Part shown: in pieces, positions 1,074-35,483 of the stretch
How positions within the stretch are numbered: position 1 is the first letter of the stretch
Layout: every line of letters begins with the position of its first letter
Assembly (NCBI GenBank): GCA_017829005.1
Contig: JAGAJF010000101.1
Location: 1 to 59,708 of the forward strand
DNA from: Oscillospiraceae bacterium
GTDB lineage: Bacteria; Bacillota; Clostridia; Oscillospirales; Ruminococcaceae
Direction: 5' to 3'
Length of the DNA: 59,708 nt
Notes under the pieces: model-generated
The model's database searches: none
Told to the model about the DNA's origin: nothing
What the model saw: the letters and a program-made list of their open reading frames with translations, nothing else
Program-made: the position numbers and the translations under genes

Positions 1074-2021
1074 TTATTCGGTGTCGGAGACTGTGACCTC
1101 GGGAGGATTTTTTTTCATCTCGTTGAGACGGTCGTTCTTGGAGGAATAGTTTCCGTTGTTCTGAGTAGGGGGAGCGGAAGAAGTTTCTGCCGCAGTACCC
1201 TGACTGTCCTCGGAAACAGTACCGTCAGCGTCGGAGTAGCTCACAAAGCTCTTGCCGAACTCAAGCTCCATAAGCTCCTGCATTACCGCAGGATCCTCCA
1301 TATCAATGTCGTTTCTGATAAAGACTATTTCAACTCGCCTGTTCTGGCGCTTGCCCTCTTCGGTGTCGTTGTCGCTTATGGGACGATATTTTCCGTAGCC
1401 TGCGGCGGAGAATTTATCGGGGTCGCAGCAGTCGAGGCTCAGCATATAGTTTATTACCGAGCTTGCACGTCCCGATGACAGTTCCCACTCGTTTGCCGAG
1501 GAGCTGGCGCTCTTGGCGGTGTGACCGTTTACCTTAATGGCGAAAACGTGCTTGTCAACGGCTCTGATGCCGTCGCAGATTATCTCAAGTATGTATTTTC
1601 CTTCATCGAGAAGCTCATATGAGTCTCCTGCGAAGAAAACGTTGTCTCTGAATTTCATATAAACGCCTGTGTCAGCCATTTCCACAGAGACCTGTTCCTG
1701 AAGTCCGGCACTTTCAACGGCTTCATTAAGGTACATATAGAACTCGTCGAAGTCTATCTCCTGGGAATTCTGTTCCTGTTCCTCGTCCACGTATATAGCC
1801 GAGGGGTCGTTTTCGGGATTAGGCTCGTCCACCACAACGTTTATTATCTCGCCCTTTCCTGTGGAAAATGCCTGGGCGATATACTGCCATTTTGTCTCAT
1901 CCATAGAGGACATCGAGTAAAGCAGCACGAAGAAGCACAGCAGCAGGGTAACAAGGTCACCGTAGGTATCCATCCAGTTGGCGCCGCCTCCGCCGCCTCC
2001 GCCGCTTTTTCTGTGTGCCAT
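1074..2021 (-). CDS. motB: flagellar motor stator protein MotB (PomB/MotS-like)
   Basis: Stator subunit that couples ion flow to rotation and anchors the stator to peptidoglycan. After a glycine-rich N-terminus there is one membrane segment (about residues 16-38) with the ion-binding Asp22 in the YGD motif. The C-terminal OmpA-like domain (about 110-245) has the peptidoglycan-binding pattern NGHTA...SSGRAS...GKYRP...NRRVEI. A Ser/Thr/Asn-rich tail of about 60 residues follows. The segment after Asp22, LVTLLLCFFVLLYSMSSMD, looks more like sodium-type PomB/MotS than proton-type MotB; this is a similarity judged by eye. Start ATG has a GGAGGTG site. Unusually it has its own promoter and hairpin leader in the 206-base gap after motA. 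Confidence 0.93.
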   Translation of the reverse strand: MAHRKSGGGGGGGANWMDTYGDLVTLLLCFFVLLYSMSSMDETKWQYIAQAFSTGKGEIINVVVDEPNPENDPSAIYVDEEQEQNSQEIDFDEFYMYLNEAVESAGLQEQVSVEMADTGVYMKFRDNVFFAGDSYELLDEGKYILEIICDGIRAVDKHVFAIKVNGHTAKSASSSANEWELSSGRASSVINYMLSLDCCDPDKFSAAGYGKYRPISDNDTEEGKRQNRRVEIVFIRNDIDMEDPAVMQELMELEFGKSFVSYSDADGTVSEDSQGTAAETSSAPPTQNNGNYSSKNDRLNEMKKNPPEVTVSDTE

Positions 2022-30900: not shown

Positions 30901-31161
30901 GCTCTTATGGCAAATGCTTGGAGAAACTCTTACGTTTACTCCTATGACGCTGATATGAACAGGATCAAGGTAAGCTCCACCAAGAAGCGCGGCGTTATCG
31001 TTATTGACCTTGGTGAAGATTACGCCGGCAAGTCGTTCGTGATCTACAGCGGCAGAAAGAGTACTAAGGTAAAGGTTACCGAGGGCAAGCTTGATGCAAA
31101 GGGCAAATTTACATTTGAAGTTCCCGACGGACAGAATTTCACGCTTGTTGTTGAGGATTGA
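27904..31161 (+). CDS. large secreted leucine-rich-repeat surface protein
   Basis: A 1,085-residue protein with a signal peptide (KKKLIKRSAAFATAFLMSAG, cleavage near residue 40). It has a DADDNGFLDD calcium-like loop (about 60-72), about seven leucine-rich repeats (LDLSNNTKL, LDISGCDAL, LDLSSKPDL, LDLSQCTSL; about 85-215), two beta-rich domains (about 220-550), two copies of a helical repeat with ALTDEQKELVTNYETLTAAE (about 557-615 and 622-680), a beta domain, a His/Cys-rich HWHQCDCG...CTVCG module near 860-910 and a C-terminal beta domain. No LPXTG, SLH or dockerin motif is seen. The ATG follows AAGGAG. Likely surface or host/fibre interaction; substrate unknown. Confidence 0.75.
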   Translation: MKKKLIKRSAAFATAFLMSAGIAVSGFPDGMSFGIAAAAAGEGVEIESSFPDANFRNMIKAYDADDNGFLDDTELSAITYIYANGKDGNDISSFEGIEYLSELRDFEIHYCSVTSLDLSNNTKLIGLYAFSNPDLASLDISGCDALQLVNVANNDLEYLDLSSKPDLKSVHIARNRISEVKLEGSTAITSFQCYRNRLTKLDLSQCTSLNYLSCDSNNLTGEGSLLLPDTEIPNLHIDPQGEYTEYSFSGDKVLKLGLPEDTYSASDWWYDVCFDDLSSKYFKYIYAYGEWYPFIDFVGELTVGQMIDRYNRIEIDFNTDGITEDMYAAVAIATESGSDAVLSDYVLLKNGHNVIGTTNFKKAFSVIADRDDKVTGIYLTLNSYNPEDINVKSYEKQFNDSAEPYYFYGIPDEGMDIKTGDWWIDENTKRYWTGIAAFGDIWSSNEIILSDIADNHSAILTELYVSELKGDAYAYIKLLTNTNQIIIGDIVKLKNGKNIIGGSTSAIWEYDGERTKELYFCGDKAYQIQISIYSDDSSVSFKATNKLVEDDDSNSVMEMINAIGTVEYTAECAELIDAAREAYDALTDEQKELVTNYETLTAAEEKYAELKAETEKNEEDAKAAAAVIEMIEAIGSPVTADSAEQIIEARKAYEALTDVQKALVTNIEKLAEAEKALILIMEDAGDISDITDPESNAANADISISKEDIIENIELTPEEMSAILEGADISVRLESTDITETVSEEDKKAVEEAVSSDTYIALYLDLDMYKIIDTHNGEPTTTELHQLNGNVTVKIKIPEKFINLNTAINREYYVVHVDSVTGATTKIACGYNILTGEAEFETDGFSTYALVYEDRPVNSHEHSFGTEWEYDSDAHWHQCDCGEISDEAEHIFGEWDITVYATAEADGKKARSCTVCGYSEEVTVKYEGIVYYGIVTSGNVYADRNSAAAGQIVNVRTDFGYDIIVTAENGKRIAKITEKGSFKMPACKVYVTAVKNETFALMANAWRNSYVYSYDADMNRIKVSSTKKRGVIVIDLGEDYAGKSFVIYSGRKSTKVKVTEGKLDAKGKFTFEVPDGQNFTLVVED

Positions 31162-31189
31162 TATCAATAAGTCAGATAAAGTTATAAAA

Positions 31190-31222
31190 AAGCGACTAAG
31201 AGCGATCTTGGTCGCTTTTTAT
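31190..31222 (+). terminator. terminator of the LRR protein gene
   Basis: Stem AAGCGAC/GTCGCTT with inner TAAGA/TCTTG arms and loop GCGA, followed by TTTTTATAT. Confidence 0.85.
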
Positions 31223-31260
31223 ATAATGGTCGATAAAAAATTTTTGGTTACTTTAATGTG

Positions 31261-31491
31261 TCAAAAGTGTTCATCAAGGTCAATATCATTTTCCTCACGG
31301 GCTTCTTCCTCGTACATCTCATGTAAGCACTTAAAAATATATTCCTTGAGTACGGCAGCAGGATTGCTGCCTTTTTTTTCACAGTATCTTTTAAATTCCA
31401 GCGCATCTTCAATTCGAAGCCGAGCGGAAACGGATCTCATATTCTCGCTGTCCCATTTTCTGTTGCCGTTTTTGTGTGATTCGGTTATCAT
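31261..31491 (-). CDS. ribbon-helix-helix type DNA-binding protein
   Basis: A 76-residue protein whose middle RSVSARLRIEDALEFKRYCEKKGS...LKEYI has the short beta strand followed by two helices typical of Arc/MetJ-type regulators. The C-terminus is very acidic (EEEAREENDIDLDE). The ATG is preceded by AAGGGAG. Its promoter overlaps a TACACTGTTTACA sequence nearly repeated in the divergent promoter 67 bases away, so it may repress both promoters. It could also be an antitoxin, but no toxin partner is beside it. Confidence 0.65.
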   Translation of the reverse strand: MITESHKNGNRKWDSENMRSVSARLRIEDALEFKRYCEKKGSNPAAVLKEYIFKCLHEMYEEEAREENDIDLDEHF

Positions 31492-31509
31492 AGTTTCATC
31501 TCCCTTTTT

Positions 31510-31538
31510 AGTATATCATATTTGTTACACTGTTTACA
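31510..31538 (-). promoter_or_regulatory. RHH gene promoter with operator
   Basis: Minus strand TGTAAA (31533-31538), 17 bases, TATACT (31510-31515) with an extended TG. The sequence TACACTGTTTACA (31526-31538, plus strand) covers the -35 and is shared, 12 of 13 bases, with the divergent promoter. Confidence 0.65.
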
Positions 31539-31586
31539 TTATAGATAATGCACGAAAATATATCTGAAAAATTGTTTGATATTCTC

Positions 31587-31615
31587 TTGACATACACTGT
31601 TGACAGTGATATAAT
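31587..31615 (+). promoter_or_regulatory. perfect promoter with palindromic operator in the spacer
   Basis: TTGACA (31587-31592), 17 bases, TATAAT (31610-31615), with an extended TG. The spacer carries the perfect palindrome CACTGT-TG-ACAGTG (31595-31608), inside TACACTGTTGACA. It reads towards the 31.9-32.8 kb operon and faces the antisense RNA at 31.74-31.81 kb. Confidence 0.8.
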
Positions 31616-31739
31616 ATTATTACACTAAAAAAAATTGCCGGATATGAGCAAGAAAATTTTTATGACTGTGTGAAAGAAACACAAGGTAGGGTTCTTGGCA
31701 TAAAAACGTTCGGTATATTACTGAATATATGTCAGGAAA

Positions 31740-31810
31740 CAAAAATAGCCGATAACTGCTTCATTCTGCCGGGCTACAATTGCCCCTAGAGAACACAGTT
31801 ATCGACTACA
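31740..31810 (-). ncRNA. putative small RNA A, antisense to the operon leader
   Basis: On the minus strand, after a consensus promoter, the transcript would begin at about 31810 and fold into an outer 13-bp stem TAGTCGATAACTG/CAGTTATCGGCTA (one G-U type mismatch position), a 4-bp TTCT/AGAA stem and an apical GGGC-AATTGTA-GCCC hairpin. The outer stem is followed by TTTTTGTTT, so it also acts as the terminator. No open frame with a ribosome binding site lies inside. About 70 nt. It is complementary to the plus-strand leader of the 31918-32792 operon. It is architecturally like small RNA B. No family recognised. Confidence 0.6.
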
Positions 31811-31815
31811 GCAAT

Positions 31816-31844
31816 AGTATATCATAAAAAATAATAAATGTCAA
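31816..31844 (-). promoter_or_regulatory. promoter of small RNA A
   Basis: Minus strand TTGACA (31839-31844), exactly 17 bases, TATACT (31816-31821), with an extended TG. The predicted start lies at the foot of the RNA's outer stem. Confidence 0.75.
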
Positions 31845-31878
31845 GCATTTTGTGAAGCAGTCAAAAAATGCTGACAGA

Positions 31879-31897
31879 CATTCCTCACCGAGGAATG
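31879..31897 (+). other. hairpin just before the ribosome binding site
   Basis: Perfect stem CATTCCTC/GAGGAATG with loop ACC, four bases before the AGGAGGG site of the next gene. It could control translation start, possibly in competition with other leader structure. Confidence 0.55.
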
Positions 31898-31917
31898 AAG
31901 CAGGAGGGAGTGGAAAA

Positions 31918-32382
31918 ATGGACAACCAGGTTGTAGTTAAAATAAAAAAGTCTGCACATTTGCAGACTGGAAAAAATCCTTCGGAGGAATATGCTGAGGT
32001 GCAGTTTTCACGAGATGAGCTTATTATCTTAAAGCTTGCAATAAGACATCATAAAGATTGCAGCGAAAAGGAGCATGGAGATATGTCTAAGCTCATAAAT
32101 GCGGCATGTGCGGGCTTTGAGACTGAAAGGCATTATGCTGAAACGTACTGCGGCGTAAAATATGGGGATAACTGCGCAAGGATCAGGCTAAACAAAAACC
32201 AGTTCAATGCGCTGTGCATAGCCATTCTAAGCAGTGCTAAGGAGCTCAGGTACATAGAAGCAGCGTATACAGAACGATTTACAGATCTGCAGGACAAGCT
32301 TGTTAAGGTAATGGAAGGCTTCAGAAGGAAGGATTACAGCTTGATATCAAGCGGTGACTTCTGGGTGTTTTATTGTGACTGA
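31918..32382 (+). CDS. accessory protein of unknown function
   Basis: A 154-residue soluble protein, not recognised. It is Lys/Glu-rich at the start, with a possible helical core (about 35-60 and 95-140) and a cysteine-containing middle. The start is the ATG at 31918 after AGGAGGG; a GTG 22 codons upstream runs through the leader hairpin and is unlikely. It is 11 bases before the next gene, so the two form an operon read from the promoter at 31587. Confidence 0.65.
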   Translation: MDNQVVVKIKKSAHLQTGKNPSEEYAEVQFSRDELIILKLAIRHHKDCSEKEHGDMSKLINAACAGFETERHYAETYCGVKYGDNCARIRLNKNQFNALCIAILSSAKELRYIEAAYTERFTDLQDKLVKVMEGFRRKDYSLISSGDFWVFYCD

Positions 32383-32393
32383 GGAGGATAATT

Positions 32394-32792
32394 ATGGGCT
32401 ACAAGGAAAATATGAAAAAATATGAACAGACCGAAATAATGGCTGCAAATATTGGCAGATATGCATATTATCGTCATAGGGCGCTGGCTTTCAGCTTTCC
32501 AGACCTTTTTGACAGAATGTATGAAACGGGAAAGCTCAGGGAACACCTTGAGGATATCCAGCTTGTTATGGAGTCATATATGTCTGATTACACCAAGACA
32601 GTGTTAAGCTGCTACGCATATAAGCAGATGGCAATTGCGGAAGGCTATGAACAGGCTTATAAAGCAATAGCTGAGCCGCTTCTGGAAAGCGAAGAGGACA
32701 AAATGGGAAACAGGTGGGTGTGTGTAAAGGATCCGTACAATGACGAGCTTTTTATGGAATGGCTCACAGCGGCTAAAATATTCGGCAGTTAA
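32394..32792 (+). CDS. small TnpV-like protein
   Basis: A 132-residue, mostly helical protein. The stretch YYRHRALAFSFPDLFDRMYETGKLREHLEDIQ resembles in spacing the TnpV proteins carried by clostridial mobile elements (R-x-x-L-x-x-x-x-P-x-L-x-x-x-x-x-x-G-K-L-x-x-x-L-x-D-I). The likeness is judged by eye and weak. RBS GAGGAGG precedes the ATG. It is convergent with the XRE gene. Confidence 0.55.
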   Translation: MGYKENMKKYEQTEIMAANIGRYAYYRHRALAFSFPDLFDRMYETGKLREHLEDIQLVMESYMSDYTKTVLSCYAYKQMAIAEGYEQAYKAIAEPLLESEEDKMGNRWVCVKDPYNDELFMEWLTAAKIFGS

Positions 32793-32833
32793 AAAAGCGA
32801 CCTGACTGTCCTTGATATCGGGCAGTCGGGTCG
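32791..32833 (-). terminator. terminator of the XRE gene (minus strand)
   Basis: Read on the minus strand, arms CGACC/GGTCG and GACTG/CAGTC with single mismatches enclose GATATCAA, followed by TTTTTT. The plus strand has no U-tract here. Confidence 0.78.
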
Positions 32834-32842
32834 GTATGGCTA

Positions 32843-33184
32843 TTATTTATTTGCTTCATTTTTATCGCAAAGTGCGTCAATAAGACCGAGAACACGTCCC
32901 TTATCCATTTCGCTGAGGGTGCGGAGCTTGTGGATCACCTCGGTCTCATAATCGGAAAGCTGGCTTTTGGAAAGACCTTTTTTATCGTTGGTAAGACCTG
33001 CAATATAGTCAAGGCTCACGTTATAAAAAACGGAAAGCTGAGCGGCAAAGTCAAGGGGGACGGTGTGCTTGCCCTGCTCATAATTTGTATATGTGGTCTT
33101 ATGCATCTGCAGTTTATTTACAAGCTGTTCCTGGGTCAGGTCTTCATCTTCACGCAGGTCACGAATTCTGCTGTATAATTTCAA
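32843..33184 (-). CDS. XRE-family helix-turn-helix regulator
   Basis: A 113-residue Cro/C1-type protein: the helix-turn-helix lies at about residues 5-60 (RIRDLREDEDLTQEQL, then NKLQMHKTTYTNYEQGKH, and PLDFAAQLSVFYNVSLDYIAGL). The C-terminal helix is charged. TTG at 33182-33184 is chosen as start because CGGAGTG lies before it; an upstream in-frame start adds residues homologues lack. It is divergent from the lipoprotein gene; a perfect TACAAC-GTAT-GTTGTA palindrome in between is its likely operator. Confidence 0.85.
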   Translation of the reverse strand: MKLYSRIRDLREDEDLTQEQLVNKLQMHKTTYTNYEQGKHTVPLDFAAQLSVFYNVSLDYIAGLTNDKKGLSKSQLSDYETEVIHKLRTLSEMDKGRVLGLIDALCDKNEANK

Positions 33185-33244
33185 ATAAATCACTCCGAAT
33201 TTTGTATTTGCTAACAAAATTATACCACAAGCGTTGTTTTATTA

Positions 33245-33300
33245 TTGACAAAATACAACGATATATGTTATAATACAAGATAAATACAACGTATGTTGTA
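33245..33300 (+). promoter_or_regulatory. lipoprotein promoter with XRE-type operator
   Basis: TTGACA (33245-33250), 18 bases, TATAAT (33269-33274) with an extended TG. A perfect 16-base palindrome TACAAC-GTAT-GTTGTA lies at 33285-33300 and a related TACAAC...GTTATA overlaps the -10. A protein bound here would block the promoter. Confidence 0.75.
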
Positions 33301-33356
33301 AAATGTGGGGAGCCTCTTAAAAATTAACACTCCCCGTGAAAGGAAAGGTAATAATA

Positions 33357-34490
33357 ATGAAAGCAAAGGATTATGGAATTATTCTCGGCGCCGCTTTATC
33401 AATGGGTATGATATTCACAGGCTGCGGAAAAACAACTATCAACGCAAATGATTATCTTACCATTAACGCAGAGGGATTTGATACAGCAGGCAAAGCAAGC
33501 TTTTATTTTGACTCCGAAAAGCTTATTGATGATAATCTCAAGGCATTCGGGCTTGAAAACAGTTCAGATATGGAATATCTTGAGGCACTTGGAAGAATTG
33601 AGCTGGGACTTGACGGAAAGCTTGATAAAACCGATGAACTATCTAACGGCGATGAGGTAACATTCAAATGGAAGGTTTCCGGGCTTGAGGAGCTGGAGGA
33701 AAAGTACAAGGTCAAGCTGGAGTTTTCCGATAAGTCATTTACCGTGGAGGGGCTTGAAGAACCGCAGGAGTTCGATCCCTTTAATTATGTAAAGGTTTAC
33801 TTTGACGGAATTGCACCCGATGGAAAGGTTGTCATCGAATGCAGCGGCGATATCCCTGTAAAGCTTGATTTCAGGGCAGACAAGGCAAGCGGTCTGAACA
33901 ACGGCGACACTGTAAAAATCACCGCAAATGCATATTACGGAAATGATCTCAAGAGTTATTGCTTTGAGAACGGATACGTTCCCACAAGTGATGAAAAGGA
34001 ATTTATAGTGGAGGGTCTTGCAGGGTACATACAGTCTCTTGATGAAATTCCCGAGGACGCATACAAGAAGATGGATTACCACGCACAGGATATGCTTAAA
34101 GCGCATATAGCAAATACTGAAGATGAGGGCTATCTTGCGGGAGTTGAGCTTCTGGGAAATTATCTGCTGACTCCCAAGGACCCGTCAATATATGTTAGCA
34201 AGAAAAATTACATTTATTATATTTACAAGGTGAATTTTACCGACGGATTATATTACTATCATTATACCTACTATACAGATGTTATGCTTCTTGAGGACGG
34301 CACCTGTTCTTTTGATTTAAGCACAGCCACAGTGCCAAAGGGCAGCGTATTCTTCGGAGTAGCCTCGGGAGAAATATACTGGGCTGCTGACAAGATATAT
34401 TTTACAGGATATGGTGATCTTGATTCATTGTTCAACAAGCAGGTCACATCTAAGATAGGCGAGTACAAGTACGAATCAACAGTTAAATAA
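33357..34490 (+). CDS. putative lipoprotein, repressor-linked
   Basis: A 377-residue secreted protein with a lipobox (GMIFTGC, Cys near residue 23). Two similar Ig-like units seem present, each with the pattern N-G-D-x-V then SDE/SDK-x-F-x-V-E-G-L (about residues 95-140 and 180-225). The C-terminal half is Tyr-rich and probably beta-structured. No enzyme motif is seen. The ATG follows AAAGG. Divergent to the XRE gene, which probably controls it. Confidence 0.72.
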   Translation: MKAKDYGIILGAALSMGMIFTGCGKTTINANDYLTINAEGFDTAGKASFYFDSEKLIDDNLKAFGLENSSDMEYLEALGRIELGLDGKLDKTDELSNGDEVTFKWKVSGLEELEEKYKVKLEFSDKSFTVEGLEEPQEFDPFNYVKVYFDGIAPDGKVVIECSGDIPVKLDFRADKASGLNNGDTVKITANAYYGNDLKSYCFENGYVPTSDEKEFIVEGLAGYIQSLDEIPEDAYKKMDYHAQDMLKAHIANTEDEGYLAGVELLGNYLLTPKDPSIYVSKKNYIYYIYKVNFTDGLYYYHYTYYTDVMLLEDGTCSFDLSTATVPKGSVFFGVASGEIYWAADKIYFTGYGDLDSLFNKQVTSKIGEYKYESTVK

Positions 34491-34500
34491 CAGCAAAGAA

Positions 34501-34534
34501 AACCGCCCGGGATCGTAAAAGATTTCGGGCGGTT
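34501..34534 (+). terminator. terminator of the lipoprotein gene
   Basis: Strong 9-bp outer stem AACCGCCCG/CGGGCGGTT with inner ATC/GAT. The plus strand lacks a U-tract; on the minus strand it is followed by TTTTCTTT, so it may instead stop leftward transcription. Confidence 0.65.
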
Positions 34535-34572
34535 CAGCGGTCACAGGCATATTGACAGAATGGATTTTTGTC

Positions 34573-34641
34573 AAAAAAACAGGAAATCAGCATAAAGACA
34601 TAGGGGTCCTATTCCCCAAGTTAAATGCAATTTCCTGTTAT
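34573..34641 (-). ncRNA. putative small RNA B
   Basis: From a perfect minus-strand promoter, the transcript would start at about 34641, open with AACAGGAAAT, and end with ATTTCCTGTT followed by TTTTTTT: the outer 10-bp stem is the terminator. Inside are a GCAT/ATGC pair and an apical GGGG-AATAGGA-CCCC hairpin. About 69 nt, no coding frame. Its layout (start at the outer stem, mid 4-bp stem, apical 4-bp GC stem with a seven-base loop beginning AAT) matches small RNA A although most bases differ. Confidence 0.62.
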
Positions 34642-34647
34642 GATAAT

Positions 34648-34676
34648 ATTATAACATACTCACAGAAAAATGTCAA
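34648..34676 (-). promoter_or_regulatory. perfect promoter of small RNA B
   Basis: Minus strand TTGACA (34671-34676), 17 bases, TATAAT (34648-34653) with an extended TG. It matches the sigma-A consensus at every core position. Confidence 0.82.
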
Positions 34677-34707
34677 TGAATTTATTATCTTTCTTATCGG
34701 CTGAAAC

Positions 34708-34738
34708 AAAAAAGCGGTGGAATTGTCCGCCGCTTTTT
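34708..34738 (-). terminator. terminator of the ABC exporter operon
   Basis: Minus strand stem AAAAAGCGG...CCGCTTTTT with a short AATT-type loop, followed by TTTTTTG. It lies just after the permease stop. Confidence 0.85.
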
Positions 34739-34742
34739 ACTG

Positions 34743-35483
34743 TTATTCCCATTTGAAAAATTTTACTGAGATCCCCGTGCAGACCGCCGTTGTCAGAAGC
34801 ATTGTCAATATAGCGGCAGCGGTGTTTCCCGAGGGTATCCCGAGAAAGGTTGATTTCATCAGTCCGATACCCTGCGTGAGAGGGGAAAGTCCCACAAGCT
34901 TCTGCATTATCTTTGGCATTATCTCAAAGGGAACCGTTGTCCCCGAAAACAGCAGGGCAGGAAAGTAAAGAATGCTTGCGATGACCCCTGCCTGCTTTGA
35001 GTTTTTGGCAAGTCCTCCCACCATCATACCGATACTGAGGGTAGATATTGCCGTAAGCGCCCAGCTTCCGAGAAATTTTACAAGAGAGCCGCCGAAGCCT
35101 GCTCCCGATATGTATGCCGCTATGGCAAGGGTGATAAGGGAAACGTCGCAGTAAAGCATATAAATGGCAAGCTCCGCCCCGAGCAGAAGCCCGGGGCTTG
35201 CGGGAGTTGCCTTGAAGCGCTTGAGTATCTTTTTCTCCCTGTAGTCTGCTACCACAAGGGGCAGACCCATAAGTCCTCCCGCGCATATTGATACGGCACA
35301 GACCGCTCCGAAGGACTGCTCCAAAAAGGTGTAGTCCGCCCCCTCAAAGGCAGGCTTTGAACGGTATATGAGTCCCAGCACTATAAACACAGCCAGGGGC
35401 ATTATCAAAGCGAATATCACCATATTCATATCACGGATATTCAGCTTCAGCTCGTTTTTCATCAGCGTAAAAAAGCGTTTCAT
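34743..35483 (-). CDS. ABC-2 type transporter permease
   Basis: A 246-residue integral membrane protein with about six membrane segments. The start KNELKLNIRDMNMVIFALIMPLAVFIVLG is typical of ABC-2 permeases (YadH/NodJ type), and the LLFSGTTVPFEIMPKIMQKLVGLSPLT block lies late in the protein. It pairs with the ATPase upstream (4-base overlap, ATGA). Export of a drug or peptide is likely, but the substrate is unknown. Confidence 0.9.
   Translation of the reverse strand: MKRFFTLMKNELKLNIRDMNMVIFALIMPLAVFIVLGLIYRSKPAFEGADYTFLEQSFGAVCAVSICAGGLMGLPLVVADYREKKILKRFKATPASPGLLLGAELAIYMLYCDVSLITLAIAAYISGAGFGGSLVKFLGSWALTAISTLSIGMMVGGLAKNSKQAGVIASILYFPALLFSGTTVPFEIMPKIMQKLVGLSPLTQGIGLMKSTFLGIPSGNTAAAILTMLLTTAVCTGISVKFFKWE

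Follow-up and report, generated by a model that had tools for sequence, protein, structure and literature searches.

The DNA analysed here is a 59,708-nt stretch of an Oscillospiraceae bacterium (contig JAGAJF010000101.1, assembly GCA_017829005.1; hereafter the window), which contains two short minus-strand genes, A and B, whose predicted products are hairpin RNAs (Table 1). A previous, sequence-only reading had described both as RNAs of about 70 nt, each with its own promoter and terminator, and our analysis bears this out, including its account of the two promoters. A and B belong to a family of which we collected 96 distinct copies: 54 lie antisense within mobile-element genes for the predicted nuclease MuF_C (PF18819), where the nuclease domain ends, and 42, A and B among them, were classed as standalone, that is, promoter and RNA without a nuclease. 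These RNAs may well be antitoxins, a proposal that we weigh below.

Two small RNA genes of one family

In both A and B, the left arm of the outer stem starts at the expected transcript start and a U-tract follows the right arm, as proposed for a stem that also serves as terminator. This stem is longer in both RNAs than the 10–13 bp formerly assigned to it, with a one-base bulge separating the 11 and 4 bp of B. The predicted 4-bp apical stem with a 7-nt loop was found in A; the minimum-energy fold of B has a slipped register at this point, the 4-bp/7-nt form being supported by the family. Fold energies were −31.5 kcal/mol for A (z −5.65) and −25.0 kcal/mol for B (z −4.64), and none of 200 shuffled sequences was as stable for either. 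The window genome contains 270 TTGACAN16-18TATAMT sites versus 4 for the reversed pattern, indicating that such sites are mostly real promoters. Only five of 46 distinct promoters of this pattern, from this genome and its relatives, passed a filter for self-closed hairpins, and A and B were the most stable two.

The sequence-only reading had argued for covariation from these two sequences, which by themselves did not suffice: a covariance model of A alone gave B 11.2 bits (rank 14) and one of B alone gave A 12.5 bits (rank 8), so that the partner did not rise above background in either direction. The model of A identified a homologue elsewhere in the genus (46 bits, E 6e-9) and, at E ≤ 0.1, had matches in 19 of the 297 family-level genomes scanned, although in several cases the match was a plain terminator. 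A further model, R3, was built from an alignment of 10 good members, A included and B excluded. In the window, R3 scored A at 81.9 bits (in training) and ranked the held-out B second, with 31.3 bits and E 1e-4, the next match having 19.2 bits; because of this ranking, we consider it nearly certain that A and B share family identity. Searching related genomes with covariance models, as that reading had advised, yielded homologues with covarying stems, and its proposal of one undescribed family is upheld by the recovery of B and by an alignment covariation above that of shuffles.

No Rfam 15 family matched the window at the gathering threshold. At E ≤ 10, positions 31000–35200 gave only low-scoring matches, none over A or B on the RNA strand, and at E ≤ 1 there was no match over the homologues in ten homologous loci. 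The drum and skipping-rope motifs, which had been named for comparison and which are small RNAs closed, like this family, by pairing of their ends, did not appear at these relaxed thresholds. Blastn comparisons of the promoter–RNA stretches with the genus returned short and weak matches, mostly to other promoters.

A typical member of the family is, from its sequence, a structured RNA of about 73 nt, and most members have a predicted sigma-70 promoter of their own and an intrinsic terminator formed by the outer stem and the U-tract. The outer and apical stems covaried strongly across 86 distinct rows, which were drawn from 64 of the loci collected. In a MAFFT alignment of ten members, 93% of the cells were paired and covariation was 0.500, compared with 0.243 in shuffles; for 87 model-aligned rows the values were 84.1%, 0.516 and 0.230 (base counts use 86 rows, omitting one antisense shadow row, L148 1497, which the pairing analysis retains). 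Over the 87 rows, pairing reached 90.5% in the outer and 95.1% in the apical helix and only 49.3% in the middle one. The middle stem is therefore no family feature. Where a conserved 4-bp helix had been postulated, we rather see a type-specific internal loop; its several sequence types were labelled by regular expressions that 15 of the 96 copies do not fit.

Within the stems, G-U exceeded A-C combinations (195 versus 73 overall, and 64 versus 14 in 24 standalone rows), favouring the assigned RNA strand. The apical loop read AAUUGUA in 24 and AAUUGGA in 21 of the 86 rows; a tRNA-like reading of these seven nucleotides was set aside as speculation, the usual U33 being absent.

Copies inside MuF_C nuclease genes

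The nested location had escaped the sequence-only reading, as it is visible only with other genomes. In 14 of 14 cases examined, the RNA lay in the same codon phase of a long host open reading frame (ORF). All ten host proteins scanned exceeded the Pfam cut-off for MuF_C, the RNA spanning the codons at the end of this match and directly behind it. Host proteins also carry ArdC, metallopeptidase, LPD25 and YodL domains. Because of these companions, and of a near absence from viral contigs, we consider the hosts to be mobile elements that are probably mostly conjugative, with some plasmids and phages.

We also fetched 30 loci by peptide patterns near the start of MuF_C, independently of the RNA; four were the query genes' own contigs, and L127 and L138 hold RNAs also found by the R3 genome scans. 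R3 detected an antisense RNA at the domain end in 29 of them at once, and in the thirtieth (L147) with filters off (22.8 bits, E 0.01), there with an exact promoter. Promoters with 17-nt spacing accompanied 38 of the 39 RNA-strand matches in these loci (29 exact, eight with 11/12 and one with 10/12 positions), the 39th being cut by the contig end; seven of 46 rows had been dropped before this count, six on the plus strand, three of them shadows of RNAs, and one a 32-nt minus-strand match. Since R3 does not contain the promoter, these promoters constitute independent evidence. Where loci had two or three MuF_C domains (L132, L120 and L106), an RNA was present in each domain seen, and one MuF_C ORF (L126, 3407–3731) contained three tandem, in-frame, 126-bp promoter–RNA copies of types IV, IV and III. 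RNA type was associated with nuclease clade, the nearest neighbour being of the same type in 20 of 25 loci, with 4 of 5000 permutations as extreme (25 of 26 loci, L147 left out; types set by hand).

Codon usage indicated that the RNA is conserved apart from the protein. Among 26 nested MuF_C genes, pairs used the same codon for the same residue with a frequency of 0.457 upstream (0.411 expected from codon usage), compared with 0.763 in the stretch of the RNA and 0.795 in that of the promoter; as the sequences share ancestry, the fair comparison is with the upstream part of these genes. The valine of the −35 box is encoded by GTC in 26 of 27 loci (background 15.8%), and the −10 box is Ile-Ile written ATT ATA, also in 26 of 27. 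Loci L138, L145 and L146 were omitted from the codon tests for frame breaks or a contig end, and L126 also from the 26-gene test, in which a mismatch with the alignment was noted for three rows, probably at the first letter (alternative start codon as M). Because synonymous codons are constrained over both RNA and promoter, we take the RNA to be selected beside the protein.

In all 12 open-frame loci tested, the antisense strand formed a more stable fold than its 200 synonymous recodings did on average (z −1.8 to −5.3; a thirteenth had no open frame), and no recoding was as stable in nine of the 12. The sense strand also surpassed its recodings in several loci, more clearly than the antisense strand in L161, L118 and L116 and about equally in L147, so this test argues for a selected stem and not for a strand, which is assigned from promoters, U-tracts and G-U counts. 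The observed folds were computed in finer steps than the recodings, a slight bias; in a repeat with equal steps along the frame, the RNA site was the most extreme window in seven of ten loci and second, second and third in the others.

These tests bear on the possibility that there is no RNA gene at all, the hairpin being an antisense shadow of a conserved protein motif (K-E-K ... L-Q-L-P). Motif and hairpin do occupy the same bases. However, synonymous positions are constrained in RNA and promoter, recodings fold worse, LQLP gives way to EQYS or KWYP while the hairpin persists, and gene-free copies retain the structure, all of which already contradict a shadow and make it very improbable.

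Standalone copies, arrays and distribution

Standalone copies have the same boundaries as the promoter–RNA unit of nested ones. Compared with a profile of nested gene ends, they match only positions about 134–177 (promoter and RNA) and not the nuclease, and their mean identity to the best nested copy is 0.80 over the RNA and 0.71 over the promoter, compared with 0.51 and 0.49 in the flanks. The promoter matches at 11 or 12 of 12 positions in 31 of the 42 rows. A few of these copies resemble nested genes that have been broken, and one is located at the end of a contig. Members are solitary or form arrays with at most five units: in one contig, five promoter–RNA units follow each other in tandem with a period of about 112 bp, another has five RNAs in 0.65 kb, two of them low-scoring but with exact promoters, and clusters may mix types, as in L093 (IV, IV, III, VI, III).

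Such copies could be functionless, decaying relics of lost nuclease genes. Faint frames resembling the nested gene tail persist opposite A and B, the one opposite A having no nuclease core in the match, and a few other copies look like broken nested genes, as decay would predict. Yet promoter, U-tract and pairing have been retained while the flanks were lost, and five units stand in a regular tandem array; we thus regard relics as improbable.

Several individual loci deserve mention. R. bicirculans 80/3 carries nested copies (L120 and L134). On plasmid pRUMAL01 of R. albus 7 (L158, 6268–6475), two RNAs of different types accompany what is left of a broken MuF_C gene, with an annotated DUF4368 gene upstream of them. 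Two type I copies lie five bases apart in L086 (1501–1644, minus strand); the downstream promoter is poor (8/12) and the pair may share one transcript. A copy with an 11/12 promoter is found near the end of an unverified human-faecal phage scaffold (MT835857.1; L159, 356–429), where nested and standalone are indistinguishable. In a genus genome (L016, about 1165–1302, minus strand), a promoter is followed immediately by a very stable long hairpin (−47 kcal/mol), by eye unrelated and possibly another small RNA.

At E ≤ 0.01, R3 matched 30 of the 396 genomes scanned from the taxonomic family, a figure that includes at least two with plain terminators only (L104 and L105, false positives with no promoter). 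It also matched nine of 394 genomes of the order at E ≤ 0.001, five of them in other families, and four of 20 genus genomes at E ≤ 0.1, with the matches inspected in all but G002 and G010. These counts are lower bounds, as only part of the candidates was scored per genome and B was missed in its own genome; the collections repeat some genomes, whereas the 54 nested and 42 standalone copies are distinct RNAs. MuF_C genes picked as outside controls also carried the hairpin, with weak promoters (8–9/12): that of the E. coli phage PhiR5_2 scored 71.7 bits (E 8e-14) and that of an Opitutaceae plasmid 38.7 bits (E 3e-6), with weaker matches in an A. baumannii plasmid (26.4 bits, E 0.002) and phage phi296 (20.6 bits, E 0.03).

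In a sample of the phylum, just three of 398 genomes contained MuF_C. One locus (L165) had a 24-bit R3 match beside a broken frame; the others (L166 and L167) gave no significant R3 match, yet their antisense folds stand out. Gene product gp30 of phage Mu had no R3 match and was not reached by the nested-tail profile. Given these three cases, the claim that the RNA belongs to MuF_C genes in general is tentative. For scans of whole collections, the joint MuF_C alignment proved too diverse; two smaller alignments took its place, of which only A9 was applied to genome contigs. No MuF_C was found in viral contigs scanned with these alignments or with L083, and the PhiR5_2 domain found one match, 100% identical to its own.

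Around A, a perfect plus-strand promoter with a palindromic spacer (window 31587–31615) would read antisense across A toward two small plus-strand ORFs with no confident family (31852–32382 and 32394–32792), and is a possible second partner of A. In the second ORF, TnpV matched weakly and below the cut-off (E 0.002), a hint that the remnant of a mobile element lies next to A. Homologous lipoprotein-like genes (26–31% identity) adjoin standalone RNAs, in convergent orientation, in three genomes, a neighbourhood that may be due to chance.

Table 1. RNA genes of the window and associated features (positions in the window unless a locus is named)
Feature	Position	Strand	Characteristics
RNA A promoter	31816..31844	-	TTGACA-17-TATACT, extended TG; spacing and place as in the family
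RNA A	31739..31811	-	Standalone, internal-loop type I; 15-bp outer stem; apical GGGC-AATTGTA-GCCC; terminator U-tract
RNA B promoter	34648..34676	-	TTGACA-17-TATAAT, extended TG
RNA B	34571..34641	-	Standalone, internal-loop type V; outer stem 11+4 bp; apical GGGG-AATAGGA-CCCC; U-tract
Reading frame antisense to A	31756..31824	+	Resembles nested MuF_C gene tail (profile 141-163 only); E 3e-5 / 2e-4
Stretch antisense to B	34519..34701	+	Resembles same MuF_C gene tail (profile 139-172 only); E 5e-5 / 4e-4
Lipoprotein-like genes beside standalone RNAs	window 33336-34490; L109 10839-11996; L111 6490-7695	+; -; -	Homologous

A candidate RNA antitoxin

We give an even chance to the proposal that the RNA is an antitoxin nested in its own toxin gene and that standalone copies confer immunity; such a role fits the family better than the label 'regulatory' given earlier. 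MuF_C belongs to the PBECR group of predicted RNases, found in proteins delivered by phages and conjugative elements (passages of PMC5512222), and MuF polymorphic toxins are delivered between cells and have dedicated immunity (passages of PMC5576092). The RNA would be transcribed from a strong promoter and act as antidote to the MuF_C nuclease, most likely by binding the predicted RelE/BECR-like RNase through the apical 7-nt loop and the type-specific internal loop, in a type III-like manner. Base pairing to the nuclease mRNA might add a second layer in nested copies. A and B, which represent two types in a genome with no MuF_C match at E ≤ 0.1 (a draft, 93.7% complete), would be kept as immunity against incoming nuclease-bearing elements, and the arrays elsewhere would be larger immunity repertoires; solitary copies and mixed arrays seem to resemble collections of immunity genes.

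The three RNAs for a single MuF_C domain in L126 make the link between RNA and domain not strictly one to one, and a type that follows nuclease clade would arise by linkage alone. The RNA might instead be a type I-like antisense regulator, which would pair with the nuclease mRNA and thereby cause its cleavage by RNase III or block its translation, standalone copies doing likewise in trans. In favour of this, nested copies are by construction perfectly complementary to their own mRNA, standalone copies share a mean 80% of the RNA with the best nested copy, and A has at least 26 central nucleotides (TCTAGGGGCAATTGTAGCCCGGCAGA) in common with a nested copy of another genome (L077). However, stems change with compensation and the target sequence is not kept, standalone rows maintain pairing of the RNA strand, to judge from their G-U excess (64 versus 14), and the RNA is placed where the nuclease domain ends, which in several loci is deep in very long ORFs and far from the start codon. 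Because stems are compensated and loops constant, we think it more likely that a folded RNA is recognized than that simple antisense pairing takes place, and find a type I-like regulator unlikely.

The conserved 7-nt apical loop and the type-specific internal loops, together with a window genome that has RNAs but no MuF_C match, would also suit a trans-acting mobile-element small RNA with another target (a host mRNA, a tRNA decoy or a host protein), placed in the nuclease gene only for compactness. We consider this quite unlikely: all 30 MuF_C loci from the clade that was sampled contain at least one copy, pointing to the nuclease, and since a copy was found at each domain, also in the loci with two or three, a link to the MuF_C domain is favoured. 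A bolder form of the antitoxin proposal, which we advance as possible and with less than even confidence, is that an antisense-nested, structured antitoxin RNA is general to MuF_C genes across phyla, phages, plasmids and conjugative elements, that bacteria and elements collect excised promoter–RNA units as immunity arrays of mixed specificity, and that the KEK...LQLP tail is partly due to the RNA gene on the opposite strand.

Type III toxin–antitoxin systems (ToxIN, CptIN, TenpIN) likewise combine an RNase toxin with a small structured RNA in repeated units (passages of PMC5086642). In the A/B family, by contrast, each RNA has a promoter and a terminator, forms a hairpin with no pseudoknot shown, and lies antisense inside the toxin gene or stands alone, and not upstream of a ToxN-like toxin gene with a terminator between; its RNase is predicted to be RelE/BECR-like. 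In type I systems, toxin and antitoxin genes are usually on opposite strands, and RalA/RalR may be a precedent for nesting. Nested copies do lie opposite the toxin gene, unlike A and B in a genome with no MuF_C match. A further likeness is that antitoxin RNAs act against toxin genes on mobile elements, as in C. difficile (parts of PMC7699646). Here the toxin forms one domain of polyvalent proteins that are often very large, and the RNA sits within the coding sequence, where the nuclease domain ends; its structure covaries and standalone arrays exist.

The MuF_C/PBECR polyvalent proteins host the nested copies; passages of PMC5512222 on them mention no RNA gene, and the terms 'ncRNA' and 'RNA antitoxin' occur nowhere in its main text. 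For MuF polymorphic toxins, the immunity proposed is a small downstream ORF (passages of PMC5576092), whereas in this family it would be provided by an RNA encoded within the toxin gene. Among open-licence papers, judged by title and start of abstract, we found no report of antisense RNA in MuF_C or PBECR genes. RNA antitoxins of types I and III are already known; the antisense-nested, dual-coded form with standalone arrays is, to our knowledge, apparently new.

The family thus adds an RNA with no Rfam entry that is dual-coded inside Pfam-domain genes of mobile elements and phages. For annotation, it means that a conserved protein tail can partly be the shadow of an RNA gene. As an antitoxin, it would offer an answer to the question, raised by polyvalent and MuF proteins, of how cells or elements withstand the RNase that they themselves deliver, and it predicts a form of immunity based on RNA arrays.

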